Assembly (NCBI GenBank): GCA_947500825.1
Contig: CANMTR010000026.1
Span: forward strand, 1-33,336
Source of the DNA: an uncultured Paracoccaceae bacterium
GTDB taxonomy: Bacteria > Pseudomonadota > Alphaproteobacteria > Rhodobacterales > Rhodobacteraceae
DNA length: 33,336 nucleotides
Reading direction: 5' to 3'
This document shows positions 2,364-33,336 of the stretch, piece after piece. The translations under genes were made by a program, and so were the position numbers. Numbering within the stretch: position 1 is the stretch's first letter; each line of letters starts with the position of its first letter. The notes under the pieces are model-generated. The model saw only the letters and a program-made list of their open reading frames with translations. It ran no database searches and had not been told where the DNA came from.

Positions 2364-2372
2364 GTATGTTAC

Positions 2373-19756: not shown

Positions 19757-20382
19757 TGCGGCGGCGCAGTTTTCTTGGATACGGCGCCGCAGCTTTCGGC
19801 GTGATCGGGCTGACACTTATCGCGGGCTGGTGGCGGGTCGACGGCCCCGGCGCGCCGCAAGCTGTCGGTGCGCGCCCGCTACCGCTCACCGAGATGGATT
19901 TCAGCCTAACTGATCATGAAGGCCGCACGGTCGGACCGGAGACGTTGATCGGATCGCCAACCATCGCCTTCTTCGGCTTCACCCACTGTCCTGACGTGTG
20001 CCCGACCACGCTTGCGGACATTTCCGATTGGCTGGACGCATTGGGAGGGGATGCGGAGAAACTGAATGTCGTCTTCATCACGGTCGATCCGGAACGCGAC
20101 ACCGTGGAGGCAATGGCGGAGTACGTCGATTACTTCCACCCGGCGATCCGGGGCTGGACCGGTACGGAGCGGCAGATAGCCCGAGCGGTTGAAGGTTTTC
20201 GGGCGACCTACGAAAAGGTCCCGACCGACAATGGCGACTACACGATGAACCATACGGCGAGCGTCTTCCTGTTCGACGCGCTGGGGCGCTTCGTGACCAC
20301 CATCGACTACCACGAACCGAGAGAATTCGCGGTGCCGAAGATTCGCCGCGCAATGAACGAAGAAAAAGCAGAGGGGGCATGA
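19756..20382 (+). CDS. SCO1/SenC family copper chaperone (second copy)
   Basis: 208 residues. An N-terminal membrane anchor with twin Arg-like start (MRRRSFLGYGAAAFGVIGL) precedes a thioredoxin fold with FFGFTHCPDVCPTTLADI, TVDPERDT and the His ligand in MNHTASVFLFD. It differs enough from the first SCO to be a paralogue rather than a recent duplicate; two SCOs around PCu(A)C may do copper transfer and thiol reduction separately. The stop overlaps the M23 peptidase start (ATGATG). Confidence 0.92.
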   Translation: MRRRSFLGYGAAAFGVIGLTLIAGWWRVDGPGAPQAVGARPLPLTEMDFSLTDHEGRTVGPETLIGSPTIAFFGFTHCPDVCPTTLADISDWLDALGGDAEKLNVVFITVDPERDTVEAMAEYVDYFHPAIRGWTGTERQIARAVEGFRATYEKVPTDNGDYTMNHTASVFLFDALGRFVTTIDYHEPREFAVPKIRRAMNEEKAEGA

Positions 20383-21767
20383 TGAGGTTGAGATACTGGG
20401 CGGCAGGATTGGCGATGACCGGCAGTGCGATGGCGATGGCCACGGTACCGATCGGCACGGCCATGAGCGAGCCGGTCGCGCCTGGGCCGGCCGAGGCGGT
20501 TCTGGGGATGCCCGGGCCTGTCGCGTTTCCGGAACAGCTGGACGCCGTTGCGCTCGATGCCGCCCTTGCGGTGCCGGCCCGGGATTCCGACACCCTATCC
20601 CTGGCCTTTCCGACAGAAGCACAGGCCCTGTCGATAACCGGGAATCCCCTGCTCAAGGCCGACCCTCAGCCGATCATATGGTCGCGCGAAATTGGCTCCG
20701 GCGAGACACTCGACGCGCTTCTGACGCAAGCCGGCCTTGCCAAGGCGGATCGTGACGAAGCGGCGCTGGCACTTGGCGTCGAATACGATCTCCGGCGCCT
20801 GCAACCGGGCTTCGGGGTGACAGTCACGACGATGCCGGACGGCATCCTGCGCAGCGTTTTTCTTGACGTCGAGGATGGCATGCGGGTCGAAGCGATCTTC
20901 GGCGCCCAGCCCGAGATCCGTGTAGTGACCCCCGACCCGGAAACCGTGACCTTGGCTGGAAAGGTCCGTATCGCGAGCTCACTCTTCGCGGCTCTCGACG
21001 AGGCGGGCATTCCGGAGCGTTTCGCCGTCGATCTGGCGCAAATCCTGGGGGGTACCGTGGATTTTCACCGCGATCTCAGTGGCGACGAAACGCTGCGCGT
21101 CCTCTGGCGCGAGGCGCGCCTGGAGGGTGAGATCATCGGGCAACCCGAGATTGCCTTCGCCGCGCTCGATCTCGGGAACGCGCTTTACGAGATCGTCTGG
21201 CCCAAGGACGGCACAGGCCGTGCCACGGTCTATCTCGACGGGGAGGTGGTTCGCGTCTTTGCCCAGCCTGTGGAGGGGTCGCGGGTCAGCTCCGTATTCG
21301 GCCAGCGCAAGCACCCCATCTATGGCAACGTGCGCATGCATACCGGTGTTGATTTCGCAGCCTCACGCGGGACGTCGGTGCATGCGACGGCGCCGGGGCG
21401 CATCGCCTTCATCGGTCGCCGGGGCGGCTACGGGCGCGTCGTCGAGATCGCTCACGGCACGGAGACCATGACGCGCTATGCGCATCTGAGCGCCGTGCCC
21501 GATGGCCTTGCGAAAGGTCAGCGTGTCTCAGCCGGCGACATGATCGGACGGGTCGGGGCGACCGGAACGGCGACGGGGCCGAACCTGCACTACGAGGTGC
21601 GCGTGGACGGGCGTCCGACCGATCCGCTTTCCGATGAGCGTCTTGCGGAGGCCATCGAGCACGAAGCACAGGACGGCGCAGGCCTGGGTCGGCTGACCGA
21701 GGCGCGCGCGCGCCTCGAGGACGCGCTCTCCCTGGATCTTGCATCGAGCACTCCCGAAAGGCTCTGA
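20379..21767 (+). CDS. M23-family (LytM) murein endopeptidase
   Basis: 462 residues with a signal sequence and a long N-terminal region containing a LysM/OapA-like segment (IGSGETLDALLTQAGLAKAD). The C-terminal peptidase starts at SRVSSVFGQRKHPIYG. Zn ligands are visible as HTGVDFA (HxxxD) and NLHYEV (HxH family position), with the extra His in RYAHLSAV. Such enzymes cut peptidoglycan cross-links or activate amidases. It is coupled to the SCO operon. In Rhodobacterales, M23 proteins often accompany periplasmic metal genes, though the reason is not known. Confidence 0.9.
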   Translation: MMRLRYWAAGLAMTGSAMAMATVPIGTAMSEPVAPGPAEAVLGMPGPVAFPEQLDAVALDAALAVPARDSDTLSLAFPTEAQALSITGNPLLKADPQPIIWSREIGSGETLDALLTQAGLAKADRDEAALALGVEYDLRRLQPGFGVTVTTMPDGILRSVFLDVEDGMRVEAIFGAQPEIRVVTPDPETVTLAGKVRIASSLFAALDEAGIPERFAVDLAQILGGTVDFHRDLSGDETLRVLWREARLEGEIIGQPEIAFAALDLGNALYEIVWPKDGTGRATVYLDGEVVRVFAQPVEGSRVSSVFGQRKHPIYGNVRMHTGVDFAASRGTSVHATAPGRIAFIGRRGGYGRVVEIAHGTETMTRYAHLSAVPDGLAKGQRVSAGDMIGRVGATGTATGPNLHYEVRVDGRPTDPLSDERLAEAIEHEAQDGAGLGRLTEARARLEDALSLDLASSTPERL

Positions 21768-21770
21768 ACC

Positions 21771-22226
21771 ATGAGAGATCTGCTTAACGCGATGACGACC
21801 GTTGCCGGCGTCCAACCTGCCACCAATGCTCCGACCGAACCGGACCGGATCTACGATGGCGTCCTCAGTCGCGATGACGGATCGACGGTCGTCTTCGCGC
21901 GCGACGAAGGAAACGGCTCGGTGTCGCAAGAACGGGCTGCGGGCAAGACGATCATCCTTTTCGCAGGGTTGCTGGCGCTCGGGGGTTGCGCTGTTCCTTC
22001 CCGGGAGGTCGTGGACCCGCAGCCGACCACCTCTCCCGAGGTGCTGATGCAGCTGAGCGCCTTGGCCGCCCCCTACCAGGATCTGCAGTCGGTGCGTCTG
22101 CGGCCCGAGGACGGGTGCTATTGGTACCGGCATATCGGGCCGGTGGAGACGACCATGCTGCCCCTTCGCACGCCTGAGGGACGCCCGATCTGCACTCAGG
22201 CCATGGCGCAGACGGCGCGGTGGTGA
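21771..22226 (+). CDS. Putative lipoprotein or short membrane protein
   Basis: 151 residues from ATG 21771, unrecognised. An internal segment GKTIILFAGLLALGGC has the form of a lipoprotein signal with lipobox LGGC, and a GTG at 21921 has an AAGGA-like site upstream; starting there gives a 101-residue lipoprotein. The first 50 residues (MRDLLNAMTTVAGVQPATNA and onward) are polar and may belong to a membrane protein, or to a short peptide fused by a lost stop. The C-terminal part has two Cys (EDGCYWYRHIGPVET and PICTQAM). It follows the M23 gene by 3 bp, so it probably acts with it at the envelope. Confidence 0.6.
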   Translation: MRDLLNAMTTVAGVQPATNAPTEPDRIYDGVLSRDDGSTVVFARDEGNGSVSQERAAGKTIILFAGLLALGGCAVPSREVVDPQPTTSPEVLMQLSALAAPYQDLQSVRLRPEDGCYWYRHIGPVETTMLPLRTPEGRPICTQAMAQTARW

Positions 22227-22370
22227 ATGAGCCTGTACCGACGCCAGAAGCCGACATGTCGGGCCCAATCAGAGCCCCTCTTTGCCTGGAAGGTCGCAAG
22301 CAAGGAACGCAGGGATCGATACACCCCCGTTCCGGCTGGAAAGCGCGGTTTACGGGGGCGCAGGAAACGA

Positions 22371-23042
22371 TCAGCTATGCGCCGTGACCGGCCCGTCACC
22401 CTCGGCCGGGTAGAGGAAGGCCGTCACCCCGGTTTCGACCTTCTCGTAGAGATCGTTGATATGCGGCATGACCATGCGCACGCAGCCCGAACTCGCCCGG
22501 CTCCCGATCGAGCGAGGGTAAGGTGTGCCGTGGATCCGAAGATACGTGTCGCGGTTGCCGACATAGAGATAGAGCGCGCGCGACCCGAGCGCGTTTCGAG
22601 GACCGGGCTCCATCCCGTCTTCGTACTGGGCATAGGCGTCCGGCTCTCTCTCGATCATCGCCTGGGTCGGGGTCCAGTGCGGCCACTCCACCTTGCGCCG
22701 GATCGTGTAGGTGCCCGGCTCGTAAAGACCGCCCCGCCCGATTGCCACGCCATAGCGCATGGCGGTTCCGCCCGCTTCGATATGGTAGAGATACCGCGCG
22801 GTCGCATCGACATGGATGTCTCCGGCCACCAATCCCGGCCGCGCCTCGACCCGTTGCGGCAGCAGACGCGGGTGCAGGCCCCAGGGGTTCGTCGTGGCCG
22901 GAACGTAATTCGGCGGCGTCACCTGCGCGTCCCAGGCGCTCTTCTGAGCCCCCGTCGGCCAGGTGCTTGCGAGAACGGGCCCGGCGATCGGGGCGGAGGC
23001 CATCGCGGCGGTCGTCGCGATGAAATGGCGTCTGGTCAGCAT
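22371..23042 (-). CDS. L,D-transpeptidase (YkuD family)
   Basis: 223 residues. The N-terminus TRRHFIATTAAMASA is Tat-like, ending near VLA-S. The YkuD domain follows: RYLYHIEAGGTAMRYGVAIG, TPTQAMIEREPDA, and the catalytic block IHGTPYPRSIGSR with SSGCVRM, carrying the nucleophile Cys and its His. These enzymes form 3-3 peptidoglycan links or attach lipoproteins such as Lpp. The gene faces the M23 and lipoprotein genes; the shared theme is cell-wall remodelling. It diverges from the ZIP gene across 212 bp containing a dyad. Confidence 0.92.
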   Translation of the reverse strand: MLTRRHFIATTAAMASAPIAGPVLASTWPTGAQKSAWDAQVTPPNYVPATTNPWGLHPRLLPQRVEARPGLVAGDIHVDATARYLYHIEAGGTAMRYGVAIGRGGLYEPGTYTIRRKVEWPHWTPTQAMIEREPDAYAQYEDGMEPGPRNALGSRALYLYVGNRDTYLRIHGTPYPRSIGSRASSGCVRMVMPHINDLYEKVETGVTAFLYPAEGDGPVTAHS

Positions 23043-23135
23043 TTTAGAGATCCGCTCCCGGGAGTCTTTGGTGTTTCAGAGCTTCCTGCGAAGCACCCCT
23101 TCAGCCTAGAAAAGATGCCCGCGGATGTCTTGCCT

Positions 23136-23153
23136 CGTCACATGGGTGTGACG
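23136..23153. promoter_or_regulatory. Dyad CGTCACATGGGTGTGACG between ldt and ZIP genes
   Basis: Perfect 7-bp inverted repeat CGTCACA-TGGG-TGTGACG, in the 212-bp divergent region between the L,D-transpeptidase and ZIP genes. Its core TCACATGGGTGTGA differs by one central base from the dyad at 17457-17470. A shared operator is likely; the regulator is unknown. Confidence 0.55.
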
Positions 23154-23254
23154 GAGCATCCTTTTGCGGGCCGATCCGACGCGCTAGGCATGCGCGGCCG
23201 CGGGATACTAACTTCACCGTTTCCTTCGATTCCCCTGTCTTCTCAGGAGAGGCC

Positions 23255-24037
23255 ATGAACGAGTTGTCCCCGATCGCTCTCGGCTTCTTCGGCAGCCTCG
23301 CCGCTGGATCTTTGACCGCCATCGGCGCCGTGCCGGTGCTATTCGGCCGGGTGCCGTCCCGGGCCACCCGCGATATGGCGCTCGGCTTCGCGGCCGGCGT
23401 GATGCTGGCAGCGTCCTTCTTTTCGCTGATCATTCCCGCGCTGGATGCGGCCGAGCCCATGTTCGAGAACGGCGCGATGCCCGCCGCCATCGTATGCGTC
23501 TCGATCCTGCTCGGGATGGGTGCGGTCGCACTGATGAACGAGCGCCTGCCGCACGAGCATTTCAGGACCGGGCGCGAGGGACCGGAAGCGGCATCGTTGC
23601 GGCGCGTCTGGCTCTTCATCATCGCGATCACCATCCACAATTTCCCCGAGGGTCTGGCGGTCGGGGTAGGTTTCGGCGCGGACGGGTTGTCCGGTGGTTT
23701 GTCGCTCGCGATTGGGATCGGACTGCAAAACGCGCCAGAGGGACTGGCGGTCGCTGTGTCGCTCCTCGGCGAGGGTTATCACAAGGCCCGCGCATGGGGT
23801 GTCGCGGCCCTGACCGGCCTGGTGGAGCCGGTGGGCGGCCTTCTGGGTGCCGGGATCATCACGTTGTCCCAGCCGCTCCTGCCCTGGGGTCTCGCCTTTG
23901 CGGCCGGCGCGATGCTCTACGTCATCAGTCACGAGATCATCCCCGAGACCCATCGCAGCGGGCATCAGAACCGCGCGACGCTTGGCTTGGCTATAGGCCT
24001 GGTCCTGATGCTCTTTCTGGACGTTTGGCTGGGATGA
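23255..24037 (+). CDS. ZIP family divalent metal transporter (ZupT/GufA-like)
   Basis: 260 residues with eight predicted helices; ATG follows AGGAGAGGCC. The metal-site motifs in helices 4 and 5 are HNFPEGLAVGVGF and QNAPEGLAVAVSLL, and the helix-5 His is replaced by Gln/Asn as in GufA-like members. ZIP proteins import Zn(II), Fe(II) or Mn(II) into the cytoplasm, opposite to the CDF and P1B exporters of this island. It overlaps the lspA-like frame by ATGA. The upstream dyad suggests control separate from MerR. Confidence 0.9.
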   Translation: MNELSPIALGFFGSLAAGSLTAIGAVPVLFGRVPSRATRDMALGFAAGVMLAASFFSLIIPALDAAEPMFENGAMPAAIVCVSILLGMGAVALMNERLPHEHFRTGREGPEAASLRRVWLFIIAITIHNFPEGLAVGVGFGADGLSGGLSLAIGIGLQNAPEGLAVAVSLLGEGYHKARAWGVAALTGLVEPVGGLLGAGIITLSQPLLPWGLAFAAGAMLYVISHEIIPETHRSGHQNRATLGLAIGLVLMLFLDVWLG

Positions 24038-24597
24038 CGGCAATGAAATCTTCCAGTTCTTATCTCTCCATTGCAGGGGGCGTTGCCGTAGCGGCATTCG
24101 CACTCGATCAGGCAACGAAGGCGCTAGCCGCCGCGAACGCTGAAATCCTCGCCAGCGGCCTTGCCGTCGCTCCCGGTTTCAACCTTACCTTTCACCGCAA
24201 TACCGGCGTGAGCTTCGGCATGTTCGACGAGGTGCCGTCCTTCGCCCTGGTGTCGCTCCTTCTGGCCATCATCGCCTGGCTTGCGGTCCGCGCGTTCCGG
24301 GCCGAACGGTTGGATGATGCTGTCGGCTCCGGGTTGATCCTGGGGGGCGCGCTCGGCAACGTGACGGACAGGCTGCGGTTCGGCGGCGCTCTTGGCGCTG
24401 CCATCCTATTCGATCCACGTCCTCACTCCCCTGGCCTGGGGCGCATTATTTCTGCTGCTGCGAGGCCACTTCCCATTGGCAGCCGGAGCAGCGAGATGGC
24501 TTTTAGAGCTGGGCTTTCCTGGAGCGATGAGAGTTTCCAGATGGATGCCGAGCCTTCCGGACCGTGGCGGCGCGACGATGATCGGATGCAAAGCTAA
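24034..24597 (+). pseudogene. Truncated LspA-like signal peptidase II with foreign C-terminus
   Basis: The first about 115 residues follow LspA: AAFALDQATKALAAA, FNLTFHRNTGVSFGMF, a central helix and GGALGNVTDRLRFG, which carries the first catalytic Asp. The second catalytic block (FNxADxxI) and final helix are missing; residues from about 120 become Ser/Arg/Pro-rich. In the +1 frame, 24365-24622 encodes a hydrophobic stretch IHVLTPLAWGALFLLLRG ending just before the CtaG start, so the 3' half seems to be a deletion or fusion joint with the tail of another membrane gene. It is coupled to the ZIP gene by ATGA. It is not expected to cleave lipoprotein signals. Confidence 0.65.
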
Positions 24598-24618
24598 CAT
24601 GGCTTCGGGACTGCGCCG

Positions 24619-25599
24619 ATGACGAATCTGCTCTCCTTCGACCCCCTTGGGGCACAACTGTCCCCGGCATCGTTCATCGTGATCGCTATGTCGGCCTGGC
24701 TCTACATGCGTGGGCTTGCCCGGCCTGGACGGCTGCGGCCGCAGCCTGCCCACTGGCAAGGCGGGGTTCTCTTCGTCGGTCTTCTCTGCCTGCTGCTGGC
24801 CTTCAACGGACCGCTTCCGCCGCTTGGTCGGTCATTTTTCTCTATTCATCAAATCAATCACCTTCTGATCCGGCTCCTCGGCCCTCTGCTGATCGTTGTC
24901 GCACAGCCATGGGGCGTCTGGGCGGCGGGGCTGCCGCGCAATCTGCGAAGGCAGATCGCCGCCACGGCACGCCAACCGTTCGTGCGTGTCTTGCGAAGCC
25001 CGTGGGCTGCCACCGCTCTGCTCATCGCGGCCCTCTACATCTGGCAGGTGCCGGCGGTCTTTGGGCTCGCGCAGCGAAATCCGGCCATCGAACTTGGTGC
25101 GCATCTCGGCATGGCCGCGGCAGGACTCTGGTTCTTTACGCTGCTCCTCGATCCGCGCGATCCGCCCGAGGGGATGCGGCGCGGTGCGCGCCTCCTCAGT
25201 GGGATAATCGTCATCGTTTCGAACATCCTGCTGGGCTCGCTGACAACATTGAAAGAGATCGCGCTCTATAGCGCGACAGATAAAGGCGCTGGTCTCACAC
25301 CGCTTACGGATGAAACAGTCGGCGGTTACACGATCTGGGTGCCGTCCTCGATGATCATGATCGTGGCCATCGTTCTGGTCTTCAATGGCTGGAACCGGGC
25401 CGAAGAGCGCCGCTGGAATGCCCGGCACGCTCTGATGCGACAATCGAACTCGGCCGCTCTCGAATTTCCCGAAACGGCGGAAGAGCTTCGGCTCAAGGTG
25501 ACGCGGCCCAACCGGGATCTGGGCCGCACGCTGGCATTGTCGGCGTTTTCGATGTTCGCCATCGTCATGGTGACGGCCATCACCGTGGCATCGCTTTGA
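24619..25599 (+). CDS. ctaG: CtaG-type cytochrome c oxidase assembly protein
   Basis: 326 residues with about seven membrane helices of the CtaG_Cox family (PF09678, caa3 type). Recognisable by FSIHQINHLLIRLLGPLLIV, PWGVWAAGLPRN, ALYIWQVPAVFGLAQRNP, ELGAHLGMAAAGLWFF and the late GGYTIWVPSSMIMIV. It helps insert copper or heme into cytochrome oxidase in the membrane. Its presence next to SCO, PCu(A)C and DsbAB genes supports an oxidase-maturation role for this part of the island, although no oxidase subunit gene is in the window. Confidence 0.85.
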   Translation: MTNLLSFDPLGAQLSPASFIVIAMSAWLYMRGLARPGRLRPQPAHWQGGVLFVGLLCLLLAFNGPLPPLGRSFFSIHQINHLLIRLLGPLLIVVAQPWGVWAAGLPRNLRRQIAATARQPFVRVLRSPWAATALLIAALYIWQVPAVFGLAQRNPAIELGAHLGMAAAGLWFFTLLLDPRDPPEGMRRGARLLSGIIVIVSNILLGSLTTLKEIALYSATDKGAGLTPLTDETVGGYTIWVPSSMIMIVAIVLVFNGWNRAEERRWNARHALMRQSNSAALEFPETAEELRLKVTRPNRDLGRTLALSAFSMFAIVMVTAITVASL

Positions 25600-25830
25600 T
25601 GAAGGTAATGATCCATGTCAGCCCGCGTCTTGGGGATTCCTGTCGTTCGACCTGAAAGCCATACGGATGCCGCTCCAGCGCCACAGAGCGGAAAAGCGAT
25701 GCTTCATCGCACTCGAAATTGCCGCTCCAACAGCTCTGTAACACATTGGGTGTCTCGTAAGCCGGCTCCAGATGGCTGTGCAGTGATAATCCATGCGTTA
25801 TCGCCCGGCCAATCTCATCAGTGGCACCTC
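25600..25830. other. Intergenic region between ctaG and the P1B-ATPase promoter
   Basis: No supported gene. A minus-strand frame (25580-25882, about 100 codons) is open, but its start would run through the MerR-type promoter and it has no recognisable domain, so I leave it out. No terminator was identified after ctaG. Confidence 0.4.
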
Positions 25831-25861
25831 TTGAAGCTACAGTTGCTATAGGTCGTATATC
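25831..25861 (+). promoter_or_regulatory. MerR-type promoter of the P1B-ATPase gene
   Basis: -35 TTGAAG (25831-25836), 19-bp spacer (25837-25855) and -10 TATATC (25856-25861), 35 bp before the ATG. The spacer core CTACAGTTGCTATAG is a dyad with one central mismatch and matches the CDF-exporter promoter in 12 of 15 positions. It is a strong candidate for control by the MerR protein of this window. Confidence 0.8.
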
Positions 25862-25896
25862 GACATCCGATCGGGGAATCACGACGGAGAGCCATC

Positions 25897-28182
25897 ATGG
25901 CCGACGGGAGCGCAACACCACGCGAATGGCGGGTGACGGGCATGGATTGCGGCGCCTGCGCCGCGAAGGTGCGCGGCGCGGTCGAGCGCCTGCCCGGTGT
26001 CGATGACGTCGATGTCGCGCTCATGGCCGAGCGGCTGCGGCTGACGCTCGACGAGACCCGGACATCGCCCGAGCGGATCGAGAAGGCCGTGCGCGGCGTC
26101 GGGTTCGGCATCGCGCCCCAGGGCGCGAAACCGGAAAAGCCCAAGGGTGGCTTCGTCCTGCCGGAGGGGGCGTTCCCGGATGCTGCGGAGAGCTCGGAGG
26201 CCGATAGCAAGCCGGAGGAGGAAGTCGGACCGGCCGAAGATGGGCCGACCTCTTGGATAAAAACCTCCAAGGGCCGCCTCGTGCTCGGCACCGGCGCATT
26301 GCTTGCGGCGGCCTGGGCGTCCCGCCTCGTCCTCCCGGCCGAGATCGCCCATTGGGCCTTCGTTCTGGCAACCCTCGTCGGGATCGTGCCCGTCGCGCAG
26401 CGTGCCTTCGCCATGACGCGGGCCGGCATGCCCTTCACCATCGAGATGCTGATGACCATCGCCGCCGGCGGGGCGCTGGTGATCGGCGAGCCGGAGGAAG
26501 CGGCGCTGGTCGTCTTCCTCTTCGCCGTGGGCGAGCTTCTGGAGGGCGTCTCGGCCGGCAAGGCGCGCGACAGCATCCGGGCCCTCTCGAAGCTCGTGCC
26601 GAAGACCGCGCGGCTCGAAGCGGACGGCAGGACGCGGGAGGTCCCTGCCGGGAAACTGCGCGTGGGCCAGATCGTGCAGGTCCGGCCCGGCGACCGGGTC
26701 CCCTGCGACGGGGAGGTCGTGAGCGGCATGTCGGGCGTCGACGAGAGCCCGGTGACGGGCGAGAGCGTCCCGAGCCTGAAGGAGCCCGGCGCGGAGGTCT
26801 TCGCCGGGTCGATCAACGCCGAGGCGCTCTTGCGCGTGCGGGTGTCGAGGTCGGCCGAGGACAACACCATCGCCCGCATAGTGCGCCTCGTGGAGGAGGC
26901 CGAAAGCGCCCGCGCGCCGACCGAGCGGTTCATCGACCGGTTTGCCCGCGTCTACATGCCCGCCGTCGTCGGGGCCGCCGCGCTCGTGGCGATCGTCCCG
27001 CCGCTGGCCTTCGGGCTGGCATGGGGCGAATGGGTCTATCGCGCGCTGGCGCTGCTGCTGATCGGGTGCCCTTGCGCGCTGGTGATCTCGGTGCCGGCCT
27101 CGATCACCTCGGCGCTCTCCACCGGGGCGCGCAACGGCCTGCTGATGAAGGGCGGTGCGGTGATCGAGGCGGCGGCCCGCACCACCCACGTGGCCTTCGA
27201 CAAGACCGGGACGCTCACCCATGGGCGTCCGCGCGTGACCGACATCTCGGTGCCGGGCGGGAGCGAGGACGCGCTCATGGCGCTTGCGGCCGGTGTCGAG
27301 AGCGGCGCGAGCCACCCGCTGGCCCTGGCGATCTGCGCGGAGGCCGACCGGCGGGGCGTGAGTGACGCTGCGGCCACGGGCGGCCGCGCGCTACCCGGCA
27401 AGGGCGCGGAGGCGTCCATCGACGGCGTGACGGTGTGCGTGGGGTCCCCGCGACTGGCGGAGGAGCGCGGCGCGCTCACGGACGAGCTGCGCGGCCGCGT
27501 GGCGGCGCTGGAAGCCGAAGGAAAGACGGTGGTGATCGTGCTGCGCGAGAACGTGGCCCGAGGTCTCGTCGCGCTGCGGGATGAGCCGCGCGCCGATGCG
27601 GCGGAGGCCGTCGCAGAGCTGCGCGGCCTCGGCATCTCGCCGATCATGCTGACCGGGGACAATCCGCGCACGGCGCAGGCCATCGCCGAGGGGCTCGGGA
27701 TCGAGCACCGCTCCGAACTCCTGCCGGAAGACAAGGTGACCGCGATCCGGGACCTGACGACGGACGCCCGGGTGATGATGATCGGCGACGGGATCAACGA
27801 CGCGCCCGCCCTCGCCGCCGCGCATGTCGGCGTCGCCATGGGATCGGGCACCGACGTGGCGCTGGAGACGGCCGACGCCGCGATCCTGCGGAACCGCGTG
27901 ACCGATGCGGCGGGGGCGATCCGCCTTGCGCGCGCCACCATGGCGAATATCCGTCAGAACGTCGCCATCGCGCTCGGCCTGAAGGCGGTCTTTCTCGTGA
28001 CGACCGTGTTCGGGATCACCGGCCTCTGGATCGCGATCCTCGCCGATACCGGTGCCACGGTGCTTGTCACGATGAACGCCCTGCGGCTGCTGCTCTTCCG
28101 GCCCTCGGGGGTCTCTGAGACGGGGCGCGCCCGTCGAGACGCCGGGACTGTCCGCGCCGGACATGCATCCGCGACGACCTGA
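25897..28182 (+). CDS. zntA: Zn/Cd/Pb-exporting P1B-type ATPase (ZntA-like)
   Basis: 761 residues. An N-terminal heavy-metal domain has GMDCGAC (15-21), the GMDCxxC form typical of Zn/Cd/Pb pumps, then a polar linker to about 125. The catalytic core shows TGES, the membrane metal site CPC (391-393), the phosphorylation motif DKTGT (Asp435), SHPLA, and GDGINDAPAL. The last helix has ILADTGATVLVTMNALRLL, whose Asp corresponds to the ZntA transport-site Asp, and KAVFL supplies the partner Lys, so this is the P1B-2 group. It pumps Zn(II), Cd(II) or Pb(II) out of the cytoplasm. A MerR-type promoter precedes it and DUF411 follows by 12 bp. Confidence 0.95.
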   Translation: MADGSATPREWRVTGMDCGACAAKVRGAVERLPGVDDVDVALMAERLRLTLDETRTSPERIEKAVRGVGFGIAPQGAKPEKPKGGFVLPEGAFPDAAESSEADSKPEEEVGPAEDGPTSWIKTSKGRLVLGTGALLAAAWASRLVLPAEIAHWAFVLATLVGIVPVAQRAFAMTRAGMPFTIEMLMTIAAGGALVIGEPEEAALVVFLFAVGELLEGVSAGKARDSIRALSKLVPKTARLEADGRTREVPAGKLRVGQIVQVRPGDRVPCDGEVVSGMSGVDESPVTGESVPSLKEPGAEVFAGSINAEALLRVRVSRSAEDNTIARIVRLVEEAESARAPTERFIDRFARVYMPAVVGAAALVAIVPPLAFGLAWGEWVYRALALLLIGCPCALVISVPASITSALSTGARNGLLMKGGAVIEAAARTTHVAFDKTGTLTHGRPRVTDISVPGGSEDALMALAAGVESGASHPLALAICAEADRRGVSDAAATGGRALPGKGAEASIDGVTVCVGSPRLAEERGALTDELRGRVAALEAEGKTVVIVLRENVARGLVALRDEPRADAAEAVAELRGLGISPIMLTGDNPRTAQAIAEGLGIEHRSELLPEDKVTAIRDLTTDARVMMIGDGINDAPALAAAHVGVAMGSGTDVALETADAAILRNRVTDAAGAIRLARATMANIRQNVAIALGLKAVFLVTTVFGITGLWIAILADTGATVLVTMNALRLLLFRPSGVSETGRARRDAGTVRAGHASATT

Positions 28183-28194
28183 AAGGAGACACCC

Positions 28195-28662
28195 ATGACC
28201 CTCACCCGACGCGCCATGATGGCCTGCGCCGCGAGCTTTGCCGCCGTCGCCCCGACCGCCGGGCCGGCGCAGGACGCCCCTTCGATCCACGTCCTGAAGG
28301 ACCCGAATTGCGGGTGCTGCACGGCCTGGATCGAGATCCTGCGCGAGGACGGTTTCGCCGTCACGACCGAGCGCAGCTTCGGCACCCTCTTGATGCGGCA
28401 CAAGCTCGAGAACGGCATCCCCCGCGAGATGACCTCCTGCCATACCGGCGAAATCGCCGGCTACATGATCGAGGGGCACGTGCCGGCCGCCGATATCCGC
28501 AGGCTTCTCGCCGAACGGCCCGAGGCCGTCGGTCTCGCCGTGCCGGGCATGCCCTACGGATCGCCCGGCATGGGCCCCGAGGACGCGCGCGAGGCCTACG
28601 AGGTCTTCCTGATTCGGAAAGACGGCAGCACGGAGGTATTCTCGAGCTACGAGGCTGCCTGA
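28195..28662 (+). CDS. DUF411 periplasmic metal-binding protein
   Basis: 155 residues, ATG with AAAGGAGA upstream. A Tat-like N-terminus (MTLTRRAMMACAASF) ends near GPAQD. The DUF411 core has KDPNCGCCTAW, then MTSCHTGEIAGYMIEGHVP with the conserved Cys-His, and AVPGMPYGSPGM, which is Met-rich and suited to soft metals. Family members usually lie beside copper or other metal resistance genes and probably bind metal in the periplasm. It is in the same operon as the P1B-ATPase, so it may accept exported ions or protect them from back-flow. Confidence 0.9.
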   Translation: MTLTRRAMMACAASFAAVAPTAGPAQDAPSIHVLKDPNCGCCTAWIEILREDGFAVTTERSFGTLLMRHKLENGIPREMTSCHTGEIAGYMIEGHVPAADIRRLLAERPEAVGLAVPGMPYGSPGMGPEDAREAYEVFLIRKDGSTEVFSSYEAA

Positions 28663-28825
28663 GAGACAAGTCTCGCTATCAGGCCACGGAGCTTATCCCG
28701 AACCGTACATTTGCAGGGAAGATCCGGAATGTCCCGCGTTGCTGCTTTCCCGGCAAGGCGCAACGAATGACCTCTCCGGGATAATGGCGCCTGGTCGGCT
28801 GGTCCTGAGCGCCTGACGGTCGGCC

Positions 28826-28926
28826 CTCCGGGGGAGACGCCCCGCGGGCCGGAAGTGTCCCGCCCGAAAGGTAAGAGACGGCCTTTTTTCATGGTGATTT
28901 TCACCCCGGAAGAAGGATCGGGACAG
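28826..28926 (+). other. Structured leader module, copy 1 (extended form)
   Basis: Leader of the first micro-protein: a CTCCGGGGGAGACG block, a GGCCG...CGGCC stem (28847-28851 with 28879-28883) enclosing CCCGAAAGG, then T6 (28884-28889), a hairpin GGTGA-TTT-TCACC, and a CCGGAAGAAGGA site before ATG 28927. The order matches the leaders at 29391, 29770, 30943 and 31466; the 5' part is closest to the 30943 copy. It could terminate upstream transcription and shape translation of the next gene. Confidence 0.5.
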
Positions 28927-29031
28927 ATGACCACCAAGCAGAAGCTGGACCCTGCGCAGCGCGCGGTCGATTATCTCGTCGCGGCATCGGAGGCGGGCAT
29001 GAAGAAGGAGACGATCCGTGAGGCAGCGTGA
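28927..29031 (+). CDS. Micro-protein 1 of the small-gene array
   Basis: 34 residues: MTTKQKLDPAQRAVDYLV then AASEAGMKKETIREAA. Helical and charged; unrecognised. The GGAAGAAGGA-like site lies about 10-20 bases upstream and the stop overlaps the next frame's GTG region (29018). Too short for standard gene callers, but the leader and tight coupling support it. Confidence 0.5.
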   Translation: MTTKQKLDPAQRAVDYLVAASEAGMKKETIREAA

Positions 29032-29239
29032 CCCGGTCGGAGGCCACAACGAGCGCATGAAGCTCCTCGCGACCAGTATAAACGCCGTGGGGCTGGCTTT
29101 CGTCGTCGTCGGGATCGTGCGCCCCCTCGTCAACGCCACGATAACCGCGTCCCCGGAAACCCTGGGCTACATCTTCGGCGCGCTGGCCTTGCACGCCCTC
29201 GCGCATTACGTTGTCAGCCAAGTGGAGATCGACAAATGA
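29018..29239 (+). CDS. Small two-helix membrane protein
   Basis: 73 residues from GTG 29018, or 60 from ATG 29057. Two hydrophobic helices: SINAVGLAFVVVGIVRPLV and LGYIFGALALHALAHYVV, ending with a short polar tail. Unrecognised. It overlaps micro-protein 1 (stop 29029-29031) and its own TGA is shared with the next ATG (ATGA at 29236). The three small genes form one translation-coupled unit. Confidence 0.6.
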   Translation: MRQRDPVGGHNERMKLLATSINAVGLAFVVVGIVRPLVNATITASPETLGYIFGALALHALAHYVVSQVEIDK

Positions 29240-29361
29240 GTATCGAAGCAATCATCTTCATCTCTGGCGGCCTGGCCTTCGGCATCTGCGGTGCGATCTA
29301 TGCACGCTGGTCCCGCTGGCGCCTCGAGCGCGAGAACTACCGCGACCATCCCGCGGAATAA
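29236..29361 (+). CDS. Small single-helix membrane protein
   Basis: 41 residues: MSIEAIIFISGGLAFGICGA, a membrane helix, followed by a basic IYARWSRWRLEREN tail, as in type I holin- or stabiliser-like micro-proteins; no family recognised. The ATG overlaps the previous stop. It ends 29 bp before the next leader hairpin, which would terminate the unit. Confidence 0.55.
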   Translation: MSIEAIIFISGGLAFGICGAIYARWSRWRLERENYRDHPAE

Positions 29362-29390
29362 CCGCGCCACCCGACCGCTGGACTGAGACC

Positions 29391-29456
29391 GAGGCCCCCG
29401 CTCCGAAAGGAGACCGGGGGCCTCTTTTCGTCTGGACCCCAGCCAGACGGAAAGGA
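29391..29456 (+). terminator. Leader module copy 2: terminator plus second hairpin
   Basis: GAGGCCCCCG (29391-29400) pairs with CGGGGGCCTC (29415-29424); inside it CTCC-GAAA-GGAG forms the tip, and TTTT follows, a Rho-independent terminator. Next, CGTCTGG (29429-29435) pairs with CCAGACG (29443-29449), followed by GGAAAGGA, 10 bases before ATG 29466. The same order recurs at 29770 and 31466. Confidence 0.7.
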
Positions 29457-29465
29457 TGTTCCCCC

Positions 29466-29762
29466 ATGCCAGATCGAACCAGGTACGTCGTCGCCCTCTA
29501 CGAAATCGACCGCGCCTACGGCGGCCCCGAGGAAGGCGGCTGGTGGTACGAGTGCGGCGAGCTCCGCCGTGTGCTGCGCGTCGTGCCCGGCGCCGACGCC
29601 GCCTACGACCTCGCCGCCCGCGCCAACCGGCTGATGGAGCGCCTCCAGCGCGGCAAGCGCGATGTCGGCTCCGTCATCTACGCGGGAGGACGGTACGCGG
29701 CCGAGGTCTTCGAGGAGACCGCCCCGCGCGCCTTTCCCGAGACCCGGCCCCACTACGAGTGA
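29466..29762 (+). CDS. Small soluble protein of the array
   Basis: 98 residues, unrecognised. Begins MPDRTRYVVALYEIDRAYGG, then EEGGWWYECGELRRVLR and AAYDLAARANRLMERLQRGK; a mixed alpha/beta profile rich in Arg, Tyr and acidic residues. Ribosome binding site GGAAAGGA within leader copy 2. Proteins of this kind are common in accessory-gene arrays of plasmids in Rhodobacterales, without known role (recalled pattern, not checked). Confidence 0.7.
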   Translation: MPDRTRYVVALYEIDRAYGGPEEGGWWYECGELRRVLRVVPGADAAYDLAARANRLMERLQRGKRDVGSVIYAGGRYAAEVFEETAPRAFPETRPHYE

Positions 29763-29773
29763 CGCACAGGTCC

Positions 29774-29838
29774 GGGCCCCCGGGTCTCAAAGAGAGAGAG
29801 GGCTTTGCCCGTTCGAGAACGATCTTGAACGGAAAGGA
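29774..29838 (+). other. Leader module copy 3
   Basis: GCCCCCGGGTCTC-AAAGA-GAGAGAGGGC (about 29775-29802) is a hairpin with mismatches, then TTT, then CCGTTC (29809-29814) pairing with GAACGG (29827-29832), then GGAAAGGA 6 bases before ATG 29845. Same order of parts as copies 2 and 5, but a shorter T-run. Confidence 0.5.
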
Positions 29839-29844
29839 CACGCG

Positions 29845-30069
29845 ATGGAGATCACCCGGATATCCCTGCTCACGGGCGAGGCGCACACACGCGATATGGA
29901 CGTCACCCCGGCGCAGCTCGCGGCGTGGGAGGCGGGCACGTTCATCCAGGACGCGGCACCGCATCTCCCGAAGGAAGAGCGCGAGTTCATCCTGACCGGG
30001 ATCACCCCGGAGGAATGGCGCGACACGTTCGGGACCGGGGACGAGGACCCGGCCCCCGACGCGCCCTGA
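29845..30069 (+). CDS. Small acidic protein of the array
   Basis: 74 residues, unrecognised: MEITRISLLTGEAHTRDMDV, TPAQLAAWEAGTFIQDA, HLPKEEREFILTGITPEEW and an acidic Pro-rich tail. The motif "GITPEEW" after a helix recalls small plasmid proteins that describe a fold but not a function. Ribosome binding site GGAAAGGA from leader copy 3. The following leader is broken by inserted DNA, so the gene order here is not ancestral. Confidence 0.65.
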   Translation: MEITRISLLTGEAHTRDMDVTPAQLAAWEAGTFIQDAAPHLPKEEREFILTGITPEEWRDTFGTGDEDPAPDAP

Positions 30070-30095
30070 TCCGGACCGGCCCCGCCTGACACGAA

Positions 30096-30116
30096 GCCCC
30101 CGCCTCGAAAGAGGAG
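30096..30116 (+). repeat. Broken leader module copy 4 (left half only)
   Basis: The bases GCCCCCGCCTCGAAAG (30096-30111) and AGGAG (30112-30116) match the 31466 leader (GCCCCCGCTCCGAAAG, AGGAG) with two differences. From 30117 the match stops: the expected GGGGGC and T-run are absent. This marks an insertion or rearrangement joint at 30116/30117. Confidence 0.6.
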
Positions 30117-30294
30117 AGCATCTGTCTTGAAGCGCAAGGTCTGAACCGTGGCGATGAGCCTGACCGGACCGGAGATCTCCAAAAATCGGAGGTCCGGTCA
30201 GGCGGCGTCGAAGCAAGAGCTGCCGTCCAATCAACACGCAGCGAATGACCCGAGAGAGCCCAAAGTGTCGAATGCTGCGACGCCTACACAACGC
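30117..30294. other. Rearranged block between leader half and IS110 remnant
   Basis: About 180 bp with no recognised gene. It contains the inverted repeat at 30158-30203 and separates the cut leader from the truncated transposase. Source unknown. Confidence 0.4.
30158..30203. repeat. 13-bp inverted repeat with palindromic loop
   Basis: GCCTGACCGGACC (30158-30170) and GGTCCGGTCAGGC (30191-30203) are perfect complements. The 20-base loop contains the palindrome GGAGATCTCC (30171-30180). It could be a transposon end, an attachment-type site, or a terminator-like hairpin (a short A-run lies inside the loop). Confidence 0.5.
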
Positions 30295-30819
30295 GATCCG
30301 GTCCGCGATCTGCGCTTTCACGGTTTCGAGGATTGCTTCCCCGTACTGCTGCTCCAGAGCGACGCGCTCGTCGACGATCTGGCGACGCGCGACGGAGATC
30401 TCGGCCAGTTCTGCCATGAGCTCTGACGGCGGTTCACTCGGTGCCGGTTTCATCGTGGCTCCGAAGGTCGCCAGCGTCACGGCGTCGATCCGGTCGGATT
30501 TCGCCAACTGGCCCATGACGTCCGCGAAGCGGCGGGACCGGTACGGATTGACCACGGCGACCCGGAAACCCGCCCCATGCAAAGAGGCATGAGCCTCGCG
30601 ATGGTAGCGGCCCGTGGCTTCCATCACGACCAGGTCGGCCCCTGCGGCAGTACCGAGCTTCTGAATTTGCTCAAAGCCGGAGGGATCGTTCCGGACCCGG
30701 ATCTGGTCTCCCGCAGGATGAACAGCGGCATCAAGCCATCCCTTGCTGACGTCGATTCCCACGGTTGTCCCACCACTATGTCGCGGAACGGATAGTGCCT
30801 TACCTTTTATCCGGGACAT
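30295..30819 (-). pseudogene. IS110-family transposase, N-terminal fragment
   Basis: The first about 175 codons follow an IS110/IS1111-type DEDD transposase: GIDVSKGWLDAA (Asp23), VVMEATGRYHREAHA (Glu67), NPYRSRRFADVMGQLAKSDR with DRIDA (Asp109, Asp112), so the whole RuvC-like catalytic tetrad is present. After ETVKAQIADRI the frame turns into unrelated Arg-rich sequence, and the C-terminal Tnp domain with its Ser is missing. The ATG is at 30819. The 30820-30942 stretch upstream could be the non-coding end where IS110 elements encode their bridge RNA, but I did not identify that RNA. It cannot transpose alone. Confidence 0.85.
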
Positions 30820-30942
30820 TGAAGACTCCCCATCATCTGTTCAGGCCCAAATCTAGATTGGGGACCGGCCCTGCTCTCCTTCGGCCCTGGAAGACCCAGG
30901 CGGCGACGGCCCAATCCCCACCCGGACATCCCACACAGCAGG

Positions 30943-31030
30943 CTCTCCGGGGAGACGTTCCGCAAGCGGTGACGTCCCAAGGGAAAGATAAAAGGCGGCG
31001 CCTCCTCTTCGTGGTTTCAAGCACCAAGGA
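30943..31030 (+). other. Structured leader module, copy 5 (extended form)
   Basis: Leader of the DUF3768 gene. The CTCCGGGGAGACG block, a CCGCAAGCGG hairpin, GTCCC-AA-GGGA, then AAAGATAAAAGGCGGC, CTCCTCTTCGTGGT...ACC hairpin and AAGGAGAG. The first 60 bases line up with copy 1 at 28826 with small changes (shared blocks: CTCCGGGG, GAGACG, GTCCC, GAAAG-TAA-AG-CGGC), suggesting a conserved RNA. Confidence 0.5.
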
Positions 31031-31038
31031 GAGAGACC

Positions 31039-31428
31039 ATGACCGACACGATCCCCGATCCCCGGATCGACAATGCCGCCGGGATCGCCCGGCAGAACGA
31101 CGCCTTCCGCCGCCACGTCTGCCTCAACGCCCCCTATCCCGACGGGATGCCGGCGCTGGAAGGCCGCCTCGTCGTGACCGCCGCCCTCCAGGGCGAGGGA
31201 CTGTCCTTCGCCCTCGACTGCATGTGGTGGATCGGCCGGGTCGAGCAGTTCGGGGAGGAGAACGATCCCGAGGGCCACCACGACTTCGGTGCCGTGGAGG
31301 TCCGGGGCCGGAAGGTCTTCTGGAAGATCGACGCCTACGACAGCGACTACGCCTACGGCTCGGAGGACCCGTCCGACCCCGCGCAGACCGCGCGCGTGCT
31401 GACGATCATGTTCCCCTCCGACTGGTAG
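31039..31428 (+). CDS. DUF3768 family protein
   Basis: 129 residues. The family pattern is clear: IARQNDAFRRHVC, GRLVVTAALQGEG, then FGEENDPEGHHDFGAVEVRG, KVFWKIDAYDSDYAYGSEDP and VLTIMFPSDW. DUF3768 proteins are small, soluble and frequent on alphaproteobacterial plasmids and integrative elements; their function is unknown. Ribosome binding site AAGGAG, spacing 7. It is followed by a strong terminator at 31466. Confidence 0.88.
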   Translation: MTDTIPDPRIDNAAGIARQNDAFRRHVCLNAPYPDGMPALEGRLVVTAALQGEGLSFALDCMWWIGRVEQFGEENDPEGHHDFGAVEVRGRKVFWKIDAYDSDYAYGSEDPSDPAQTARVLTIMFPSDW

Positions 31429-31465
31429 GGACGCGCGCCGCTCCCCGGTCTCGCCCGACCGCGAC

Positions 31466-31500
31466 GCCCCCGCTCCGAAAGAGGAGTGGGGGCTTTTTTT
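31466..31500 (+). terminator. Rho-independent terminator, leader module copy 6
   Basis: GCCCCCGCTCC (31466-31476), loop GAAAGA, GGAGTGGGGGC (31483-31493), then seven T (31494-31500). An 11-bp stem with one G-T pair. Then CGGCC-ATGA-GGCCG (31507-31520) and GGAAAGAG continue the repeated leader order up to the ParB-like ATG. Confidence 0.85.
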
Positions 31501-31546
31501 CGTGTGCGGCCATGAGGCCGGAAAGAGACAGACACGGAGACAGACG

Positions 31547-33336
31547 ATGACCATCAAGCCCGACCTGACCGACACCGACGTGGCCCTGAAGGACCTCGTG
31601 ATCCACGACCTGAACGCCCGCGCGGGCTCGCCGGAGGCCTACGAGGCCGATGACATACCCGTCCTCGCGGCCTCCATCGCGACGCTGGGGCTTCTGAACC
31701 CGCTCATCGTCCAGAAAGTCGGCAAGGTCTGGGGCGTCATCGCCGGCGGCCGCCGCCGCGCCGCCCTCCTGCACCTTGCGAACGACAAGGAGGCAAAGGG
31801 CTGGACGATGCGGACGAAGGTGAAGTGCCGGGCAATTCCCGACGACGTGGCCGCGGCGACCGCGATCACCGTGGCCGAGAACGTGACGCAAAAGGCCATG
31901 GACCCGATCGACGAGTTCGAGGCGTTCGCGCGCATGATGGAAACGGGCGGCCATACCCCCGACAGCATCGCGAAGATGTTCGGCGTCGAGCGGCGCCGCG
32001 TGGTCGATCGGCTGCGCTTCGGCCGGGTTCATCCCGATATCCGCGCCGCCGCCCGTATGAGGCAGATCACGCTCGACGCGATGAAGGCGTTCGCCGAGCA
32101 TCCCGACCAGGAGGTGCAGGCCGCCGTCTTCCAGGAGATGCAGGGCCAGTTCATGGCCGCGTGGGCGATCCGGGACAAGCTGCGGAACCGCGGGGTGAAG
32201 ATCGGCGACGACCTCGGCCAGCTCGTCGTGGAGGGCTACCGGGCCGCCGGGGGCGACATCGCGGCCGACCTGATCGAGGAGGACTCGGTCCTGACCGACG
32301 GGGGGCTGGTCGATCGGCTCCTTCTGGAGACGCTCGACGCCCGCGCCGAGGCGGAGCGCGCGCGCCTCGGCTTCAAGTGGGCGGCGGCCGAGCGCAGCCC
32401 CGACTACGAGGCGCTTCGTTCCTACGGCCGGGTCTACTGCGACCAGCTCGCCACCGAGGAGGCCGGTCCCCGCGCGGCCGAGATCGCCGACCGGATGGCC
32501 GCGATCGAGGATCTGCGCGAGACCGACGAGAGTGCCGACGCCGACGCGCTGGAAGAGGAGTGGGATCGCCTCGAGGACGAGTACGACGACCTGACCACCC
32601 GCTACGATCCCGAGGACCTCGCCCGCGCGGGCGTCATCGCCACGTGGGAGCGCGGCGAGGTCACGTTCTTCCACGGCCTCGTCCGGCCCGAGGACAAACC
32701 CGACGCGGCGCCCCGGAGCGGCGATCCGGCCCCGGGGGGAACCGGCGAGACGGGCGGAACGCCCGGCGCGGGGGACGAGGCCCCGGAGGAGACCGGCCCG
32801 GCGCCGCTGGTCCTGTCCGAGAGCCTGAAGATGGACCTGAAGACGGAGCAGGCCGCCGTCGTGGGCAGCGCGCTGGCGGGCGATCCCGCGCTGGCGCAGG
32901 ACCTCGCCCTCTTCAAGATCGCGGCCGACGTGATGGGCCGGTTCTCCCGCATCTCCTATGCCCTCGGGATCAGCGCCTCGGAGGCCAACCGTCCCCATGC
33001 CAAGCCCGAGGGCGTGGACGCCCGCGCGGCGGAGGCGCTGGAGGCCCTGAGCGGCGATCTGGACCTCACGTGGTGGGACGAGCGCAGCCCCCGCGCCCTG
33101 CCGGAGCGGTTCGAGGCGTTCCGGGCGCTGGACGCGGACATGAAGGCGCGGATCGTCGCCGTGGCCATGGCCGATACCGTCCAGCCCACCGCCTACGGAT
33201 GGGGCGAGGAACTGCTGTCCCACGTCGCCCGCCAGGTCGTTCCCGACATGCGCGCCGCATGGCGGCCCACGGGGGAGGCGTTCTTCGGCCGCCTGAAGAA
33301 GGGCGAACTGCTGGGCATCCTCGCCAACGACCTCAA
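31547..33336 (+). CDS. parB: Large ParB-like partition/nuclease-domain protein (3' end outside window)
   Basis: At least 596 codons open to the window edge; ATG 31547 with GGAG 7 bases upstream. ParB/Srx-type N-terminal domain: VALKDLVIHDLNARAG, IATLGLLNPLIVQ and box II IAGGRRRAALLHLA, followed by AENVTQKAMDPIDEFEAF and a helix-turn-helix SIAKMFGVERRRVVDRLR. A middle acidic region (DADALEEEWDRLEDEYDD) and a disordered Pro/Gly linker lead to a C-terminal helical domain (MKMDLKTEQAAVVGSALAG-like, then EALSGDLDLTWW). ParB proteins centre partition on parS or bind DNA on mobile elements. The size matches plasmid/ICE ParB proteins of alphaproteobacteria. No parA is visible here. Confidence 0.88.
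   Translation, partial: MTIKPDLTDTDVALKDLVIHDLNARAGSPEAYEADDIPVLAASIATLGLLNPLIVQKVGKVWGVIAGGRRRAALLHLANDKEAKGWTMRTKVKCRAIPDDVAAATAITVAENVTQKAMDPIDEFEAFARMMETGGHTPDSIAKMFGVERRRVVDRLRFGRVHPDIRAAARMRQITLDAMKAFAEHPDQEVQAAVFQEMQGQFMAAWAIRDKLRNRGVKIGDDLGQLVVEGYRAAGGDIAADLIEEDSVLTDGGLVDRLLLETLDARAEAERARLGFKWAAAERSPDYEALRSYGRVYCDQLATEEAGPRAAEIADRMAAIEDLRETDESADADALEEEWDRLEDEYDDLTTRYDPEDLARAGVIATWERGEVTFFHGLVRPEDKPDAAPRSGDPAPGGTGETGGTPGAGDEAPEETGPAPLVLSESLKMDLKTEQAAVVGSALAGDPALAQDLALFKIAADVMGRFSRISYALGISASEANRPHAKPEGVDARAAEALEALSGDLDLTWWDERSPRALPERFEAFRALDADMKARIVAVAMADTVQPTAYGWGEELLSHVARQVVPDMRAAWRPTGEAFFGRLKKGELLGILANDL

Follow-up and report, generated by a model that had tools for sequence, protein, structure and literature searches.

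A repeated two-hairpin leader before gene groups of an establishment-type region in Rhodobacterales plasmids

Why should a run of unrelated genes carry, one group after another, the same folded sequence in front of its ribosome binding sites? The question is raised by the last part of a 33,336-nucleotide stretch of DNA from an uncultured Paracoccaceae bacterium (contig CANMTR010000026.1, here C26 or the window), a whole contig in which the region carrying the repeated sequence has its nearest relatives among Rhodobacterales plasmids according to sequence searches. We propose, with a probability of roughly 55%, that the element is a conserved leader repeated before the gene groups of a plasmid establishment-type region in Rhodobacterales, where it would act as a fail-safe double lock composed of a terminator-like hairpin and a second hairpin over the Shine-Dalgarno sequence (SD). 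The switching-on of protective plasmid genes in a new host is understood in a few model plasmids only, and a leader common to unrelated genes would give plasmids of marine and soil Rhodobacterales a directly testable control point, as well as a tag for naming unknown genes.

Layout of the leader and its recurrence in plasmids

The leader is about 80 bases long (81 positions as modelled) and is built around a purine tract ending in GGC (AAAGNRRAAGNGGGC), followed by a short T or pyrimidine tract and by a second hairpin which, in predicted folds, ends on or covers the SD. In many copies the purine tract is also the 3' side of a terminator hairpin whose tip is A-rich. The distance from the T-tract to the ATG is 40-50 bases, and the SDs differ among leaders (GGAAAGGA, GGAGAG, GGAGAC). 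An earlier, sequence-only reading of the window had described six copies of this layout; all are present, yet copies 1, 3 and 5 are poor terminators, copy 4 is cut and the gene behind copy 1 is an ardC with a deletion. An intact version of the ardC-DUF3768-ParB region is carried by another contig of this genome, C56, with the gene order ardC (encoding ArdcN and MPTase-PolyVal domains), genes of 73, 41, 98, 74, 132 and 159 amino acids (aa), DUF3768 and a ParB-like gene, as determined with Pfam. There, the gene groups are separated by gaps of 82 to 118 bases with one leader in each, and another leader precedes ardC. The leader opens six of the six gene groups, and all three genes that overlap their upstream neighbor (73, 41 and 159 aa) are without one, which bears out the original idea of a combined terminator-like and translation leader standing before each gene group.

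The ardC, DUF3768 and ParB-like genes form, together with those for a strawberry-notch helicase, DUF6878 and DUF736, a common synteny in many Rhodobacterales plasmids. The ParB-like protein was detected in 207 plasmid records (tblastn), and DUF3768 in 32 of 149 family genomes. Judging from ArdC and the shared gene order, the ardC-to-DUF736 genes would be plasmid establishment genes. The expectation that the leader always stands before small genes did not hold, as the strawberry-notch proteins of such regions have about 1,420 residues.

In the leaders of related plasmids the purine tract ends in GGC and runs into T. When 15 whole plasmids were searched with GAAAAGNGAAAGCGGGCTTT, allowing up to three mismatches, 30 matches were obtained in 12 of them and none with the reversed pattern used as control; the plasmids without a match were the Jannaschia, Agrobacterium and Sphingobium records. 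All 30 matches are in sense orientation and sit at most about 165 bases upstream of ardC, DUF3768, ParB-like, strawberry-notch, DUF6878 or DUF736 genes or their remnants (from annotation tables, or from translation where unannotated), so that in the plasmids searched the motif is restricted to these genes. Two of the targets are unannotated and were recognized by translation, the one in L050 as a strawberry-notch-like frame and the one in L051 as a DUF3768 frame that is disrupted; the DUF736 gene behind the match in L101 was confirmed. Within each plasmid the matches have a single orientation. The exact motif GAAARGNNAAAGCNGGCYTT has 42 matches, spread over 26 of the 295 family genomes searched, compared with 2 for the reversed pattern; among 30 fetched loci, 17 matches lie before DUF3768, 6 before strawberry-notch and 5 before DUF6878-type genes, as judged by N-terminal likeness, and 2 were left unassigned.

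The motif is also conserved between lineages. A model of 30 positions, trained on Jannaschia, Actibacterium and Mameliella leaders and on none from the genome of the window, scores all six leaders of that genome above all 45 control genes (p = 5.6e-8), the controls being 48 genes of three such plasmids less 3 dropped for a bad start codon. With a model made from Actibacterium and Mameliella only, the same leaders give p = 2.2e-5, and the Mameliella set of 8 genes reaches p = 0.025 in the cross-lineage test. A covariance model (CM R1), built from seven own and four Jannaschia leaders, was run against 20 sources; the 21 non-training matches at E-values up to 0.071 are without exception sense-strand leaders, standing before ParB, strawberry-notch, DUF3768 or ardC genes, and the list is mixed from E = 0.13 on. 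In the genome of the window it yielded 13 matches at E ≤ 0.001, 11 of which are training leaders or near copies of them. The two new ones lie on contigs C69 and C21, the latter starting with a strawberry-notch C-terminus and DUF736, and being probably the downstream part of a similar island.

Predicted folds and compensatory changes

The segment from the T-tract to the ATG gave, against shuffles, a mean z of about -2 in 21 hand-anchored leaders, several orthologues among them (-1.95; Fisher p = 1.6e-11). The 45 control genes gave +0.09 (p = 3.7e-8 for the difference). For the 11 own and Jannaschia leaders alone z was -2.24, and the C56 version of copy 2 reached -4.64. Mean predicted pairing of the SD was 0.73 in the 21 leaders vs. 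0.51 in the controls (p = 5e-4). At mechanically chosen places where a terminator, a ribosome binding site and an ATG follow one another, z ≤ -2 was found in 7 of 14 cases in eight island loci (sense strand) and in 0 of 14 elsewhere (392 kb of strand), one of the seven being -2.0 by rounding, four being strawberry-notch orthologues, and several places on both sides lying inside coding sequence. A rank test over all such places, island vs. elsewhere, gave p = 0.04.

Compensatory base pairs in both stems, which the sequence-only reading had named as the support to look for, were found, the covariation score of each hairpin being reached by 0 of 500 shuffles. In the alignment of 11 leaders, 97.7% of cells form the outer stem of hairpin 1, one of its pairs occurring as GC, CG and UG and the adjacent one as CG, UG and UA; slid controls score lower, and the test used the alignment from which the structure itself came, which favours hairpin 1. 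The helix of hairpin 2 that covers the SD is formed in 72% of cells and shows 16 double changes among 20 DUF3768 leaders, whose relatedness inflates such counts. This second alignment (A2) holds 20 of 34 distinct remaining leaders, and its three own and Jannaschia rows align poorly at the SD. From the 30 DUF3768 loci, 19 were folded and 11 without a clear start (L033, L037, L038, L041-L048) were excluded; the alignment excluded seven more leaders, of which L020, L034, L035, L036, L039 and L040 are without the motif and L017 has it but is diverged.

A number of results weigh against a leader with two working hairpins. Within the window, the 16-base sequence GCCCCCGCTCCGAAAG is indeed identical in copies 2 (29394-29409) and 6 (31466-31481), as had been noted, and deviates at 2 of 16 positions in copy 4 (30096-30111), but it has three matches at up to three mismatches compared with 1.04 expected, a number reached by 6 of 100 shuffles, and is by itself weak evidence, barely above chance. 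A simple terminator scan of 20000-33336 gave 8 sites vs. 6.3 expected, the sole leader copy flagged being copy 6. Good terminator stems were seen by folding in copies 2 and 6 and in the intact copy 4 of C56. Copy 3 has three T only and a stem that is mismatched in the window, the outer stems of copies 1 and 5 are weak, copy 5 lacks a T-run, and these three copies as well as the Roseobacter DUF3768 leaders make poor terminators or none. The count of double-changed pairs is less striking than the covariation score, being reached by 9 of 500 and 81 of 500 shuffles. Pairing of the SD is modestly raised over composition-keeping shuffles (Fisher p = 9e-4), because purine-rich SDs pair with T-rich tracts of any kind; it falls below 0.5 in the C56 copies 3 (0.26) and 5 (0.44) and amounts to 0.47, 0.40 and 0.36 in three Roseobacter-type DUF3768 leaders. 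Masking of the SD above composition-matched shuffles in every copy was considered and was not supported by the fold shuffles. For the Roseobacter DUF3768 leaders, a pseudoknot was considered by eye as another possible fold.

The comparisons have misses of the same bearing. The two-plasmid model scores the own DUF3768 leader below 10 of the 45 controls, and in the cross-lineage test 6 controls score at least as high as the Jannaschia ardC leader, 4 at least as high as the Actibacterium DUF3768 leader, and 9 to 28 as high as the Mameliella ardC, DUF3768, reg, hyp3 and DUF736 leaders. The exact Roseobacter form GAAARGNNAAAGCNGGCYTT has no match in the genome of the window, and a looser pattern gave 9 matches there, 5 of them leaders, vs. 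7 for its control. In the expression used, the motif is present in 13 of 30 DUF3768 loci from family genomes; the remaining 17 are mostly distant homologues, plus the own diverged one, and the leader is not bound to DUF3768 as such. As to the covariance-model search proposed along with the sequence-only reading, its success among the plasmids was not repeated in 197 other family genomes, where CM R1 gave 6 matches at E ≤ 0.001, 2 of them real leaders and 4 in coding sequence (by eye, three alcohol-dehydrogenase-like and one ABC-ATPase-like). As a search tool across genomes, the model performs poorly.

The copies might be ordinary intrinsic terminators of the upstream genes with ordinary ribosome sites behind them, made alike by purine-rich SDs, GC-rich stems and stable GNRA tips. 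Terminators often have GAAA or GCAA tips, U-tracts and SDs pair readily by composition, and the 16-base sequence barely exceeds chance within the window. We nevertheless consider this explanation unlikely, since the purine motif is kept where the terminator arm is absent (Roseobacter DUF3768), the folding exceeds that of control genes and, less strongly, that of other places with a terminator and a ribosome site (p = 0.04), and the motif was not found elsewhere in the 15 plasmids. The cross-lineage motif test, the plasmid search, the covariance model, the folding compared with controls and the compensatory changes lift the leader well above chance.

A possible double lock, its alternatives and known parallels

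Under the double-lock reading, transcripts coming from upstream would stop at the first hairpin. For most of the own and Jannaschia leaders, the predicted fold places part of the T-tract of hairpin 1 in the 5' arm of hairpin 2, and the U-tract is therefore common to both hairpins; in read-through RNA this same U-tract would become the 5' arm of the SD-masking hairpin, that is, the second lock. Because the first hairpin would stop transcripts and the second would mask the SD, the leader genes would be quiet in a settled plasmid, and special conditions, possibly those right after transfer, might open them through a factor or an RNA state. The 40-50 bases leave little room for an ordinary promoter; therefore, each gene group is probably expressed by read-through or from a promoter that overlaps the hairpins. 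No sigma-70-like site was found in window 20000-33336 by a double-stranded scan for this one promoter type, and no -10/-35-like boxes were seen by eye in the GC-rich leader stems. What we infer comprises termination, masking of the SD in the cell, the timing and the part that the genes play in establishment, and the shared attenuator or antitermination target suggested by the sequence-only reading is compatible with the data.

Over a 30-base anchored stretch, leaders of different genes on the same plasmid are 61% alike (37 pairs), compared with 52.5% for the same gene in different lineages (12 pairs), 52.6% for different genes in different lineages (102 pairs) and 34.5% for random GGC-anchored stretches; placing the anchors by eye raises all leader values, a bias from which the test set of the cross-lineage motif model is free. 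On these sequences, the leader follows the plasmid and not the gene, and such within-plasmid likeness fits a factor specific to the plasmid as well as copying from leader to leader. A trans-acting factor, be it an RNA-binding protein or a processive antiterminator, that would recognize the purine motif and release every copy at once is a tentative alternative: the values fit the co-evolution of such a putative factor with the leaders, but homogenization by recombination would give the same pattern, and the anchors were picked by eye. In a more far-reaching form, which we regard as doubtful, all leaders of a plasmid would be one regulon, whose plasmid-specific factor would read the purine motif AAAGNGAAAGCGGGC in nascent RNA, pass the terminators and open the SD hairpins, turning on anti-restriction and related genes together after entry. 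If true, this would amount to a proteobacterial equivalent, at the RNA level, of pLS20-type establishment control, and the motif could be used as a tag to search for establishment and anti-defence genes that are still unknown.

In conjugative plasmids the leading regions contain anti-defence genes, and Frpo-type promoters are frequent there (PMC11541004). The leader resembles such Frpo/ssi sequences in being folded and placed upstream of leading-region-type genes, in a single orientation per plasmid, and one could imagine it as a single-stranded-DNA promoter active on the entering strand in conjugation. No promoter boxes were seen by eye in its GC-rich stems, and the sigma-70 scan of double-stranded sequence was negative in 20000-33336; we hold this reading to be very improbable. 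The sequence-only reading had also offered a recombination seam, and indeed a seam or insertion hotspot that shuffles genes together with their leaders could account for the break in similarity between the own versions inside leader 5, for leader 4 being cut beside an IS110 remnant, and for the IS110 inside the ParB leader of Phaeobacter pP88_c (by eye). However, these are few events, and variable letters in a fixed layout with compensatory changes indicate an RNA function; the seam is weak as an explanation and we hold it to be improbable.

The closest known systems, by analogy, appear to be EGeRS1 of pLS20, the SAS/ESAS of mycobacteriophages and the masked ribosome sites of phage T4, with EGeRS1 as the nearest experimental parallel to the double lock. 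In the pLS20 family of Bacillus plasmids, EGeRS1 precedes establishment genes including ardC and has inverted repeats; no constitutive promoter was detected in it, and it blocks read-through from upstream in the native orientation (PMC8708921). Similarly, the leader is repeated before ardC and other putative establishment genes. Compared by description, EGeRS1 spans 400-600 bp and belongs to Gram-positive hosts, the leader has about 80 bases, and the predicted SD-masking hairpin of the leader has no counterpart in the passages considered (PMC8708921). The SAS/ESAS of cluster K mycobacteriophages are repeats at the translation starts of a subset of genes, around half of them with upstream imperfect inverted repeats (PMC3203893). 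They share with the leader the association of start sites with inverted repeats and the variation by lineage, yet SAS is a well conserved 13-bp SD repeat of phages, with no terminator part in the available account, whereas the SDs of the plasmid leader vary (PMC3203893). In phage T4, the genes e, soc, 49 and I-TevI have their SD and/or start codon sequestered in an RNA helix, which for e and I-TevI forms on longer transcripts that begin upstream (PMC3014915). The SD of the leader would likewise lie inside a helix, by a prediction that is weak for several copies. Late-promoter transcripts of gene e omit the 5' arm; for the leader, the sigma-70 scan of 20000-33336 gave no promoter site. The T4 sites, as far as the available text describes them, have neither a paired terminator nor a repetition before each gene (PMC3014915). 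Polyvalent proteins and ArdC are the subject of a further source (PMC5512222). A literature search, with many journals outside its coverage, found no paper mentioning DUF3768 and no description of the leader.

Copies in the window and neighboring features

Features of the leader region in the window, with matches of the covariance model CM R1
Feature	Position	Strand	Details	CM R1 match
Leader copy 1, before deleted ardC	28826..28926	+	Purine motif 28867-28882, T-run 28884-28889; second hairpin ~28882-28916, T-run pairs with GGAAGAAGG, SD paired 0.95 (fold)	28847-28929, E 1.3e-13; near copy of training sequence
ardC remnant	28927..29031	+	34 codons, in-frame internal deletion, from comparison with intact ArdC of C56; middle lost between short GCGCAG repeats	
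73-aa gene	29018..29239	+	Overlaps ardC end; without own leader	
41-aa gene	29236..29361	+	Overlaps 73-aa gene; without own leader	
Leader copy 2	29385..29465	+	Terminator hairpin 29391-29424, T-run 29425-29428, second hairpin ~29425-29455 with SD GAAAGGA	29386-29468, E 1.5e-18; near copy of training sequence
98-aa gene	29466..29762	+	Without Pfam family	
Leader copy 3	29768..29844	+	Degraded terminator-like stem with TTT; second stem 29809-29818 / 29823-29832 abuts SD AAAGGA	29768-29847, E 1.3e-10; near copy of training sequence
74-aa gene	29845..30069	+	Without Pfam family	
Leader copy 4, 5' half only	30092..30115	+	Remainder lost to insertion/deletion with IS110-type remnant; intact copy is L013:6888-6968 on C56	
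IS110 transposase N-terminal (DEDD) domain remnant	30190..30819	-	Pfam DEDD_Tnp_IS110, E 2.3e-24	
Leader copy 5, before DUF3768	30943..31038	+	Motif 30984-30999, second hairpin ~31005-31033	30964-31041, E 8.8e-15; itself in training set
DUF3768 gene, 129 aa	31039..31428	+	C56 copy PF12599, E 6e-28	
Leader copy 6	31457..31546	+	Terminator 31466-31493, T-run 31494-31500, inner hairpin 31507-31520, SD GGAG 31536-31539, pairing with T-run side (fold)	E 8.5e-14; near copy of training sequence
ParB-like gene (HTH_ParB)	31547..33336	+	Runs past contig end; Pfam; tblastn, 207 plasmid records	

Compared with C56, the window lacks two genes, the 3' half of leader 4 and the 5' half of the C56 leader 5, and has the stretch with the IS110 remnant in their place; similarity between the two contigs ends at 30115 and restarts at 30993, and a plasmid search with the IS110 stretch gave no match. 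The upstream halves of copies 5 (30943-30992) and 1 (28826-28882) are, by eye, alike beyond the common module and unlike the DUF3768 leader of C56, and a swap of leader halves is possible. IS110-type sequence is found inside leader hairpins of two plasmid regions (window 30116-30992 and L017 ~6220-7800), in almost the same place behind the A-rich tip, as seen by eye. The two stretches have no DNA similarity to each other, and IS110 elements may target these leaders.

A further leader copy is located on C69 (L106, 2266-2347, minus strand; CM R1 E 2.9e-12), but no clearly intact gene follows it. Outside the family, the ardC of an Agrobacterium plasmid (L059, 3728-3776) is preceded by a similar purine tract, GGCTTT, an SD and an ATG at like spacing, from which the leader type may reach Rhizobiales; the predicted fold of a longer stretch shows the second hairpin unclearly and the strict motif was not found in that plasmid. 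A 141-base blast of the genome gave many weak matches outside the region, the six displayed (L007-L012) being GC-rich and without the layout by eye. No Rfam family matched the leader: there were 0 matches above the gathering cut-off in the window, and nine related loci gave two tRNAs only.

At the other end of the window, 612-3398 (minus strand) encodes a HerA-like ATPase adjoining a SIR2-domain protein, which matched the PADLOC HerA and SIR2 models and are probably a HerA-SIR2 defence pair. It is followed at 4630-10342 (plus strand) by three genes matching the PADLOC models SngA, SngB and SngC, which stand for Shango defence.

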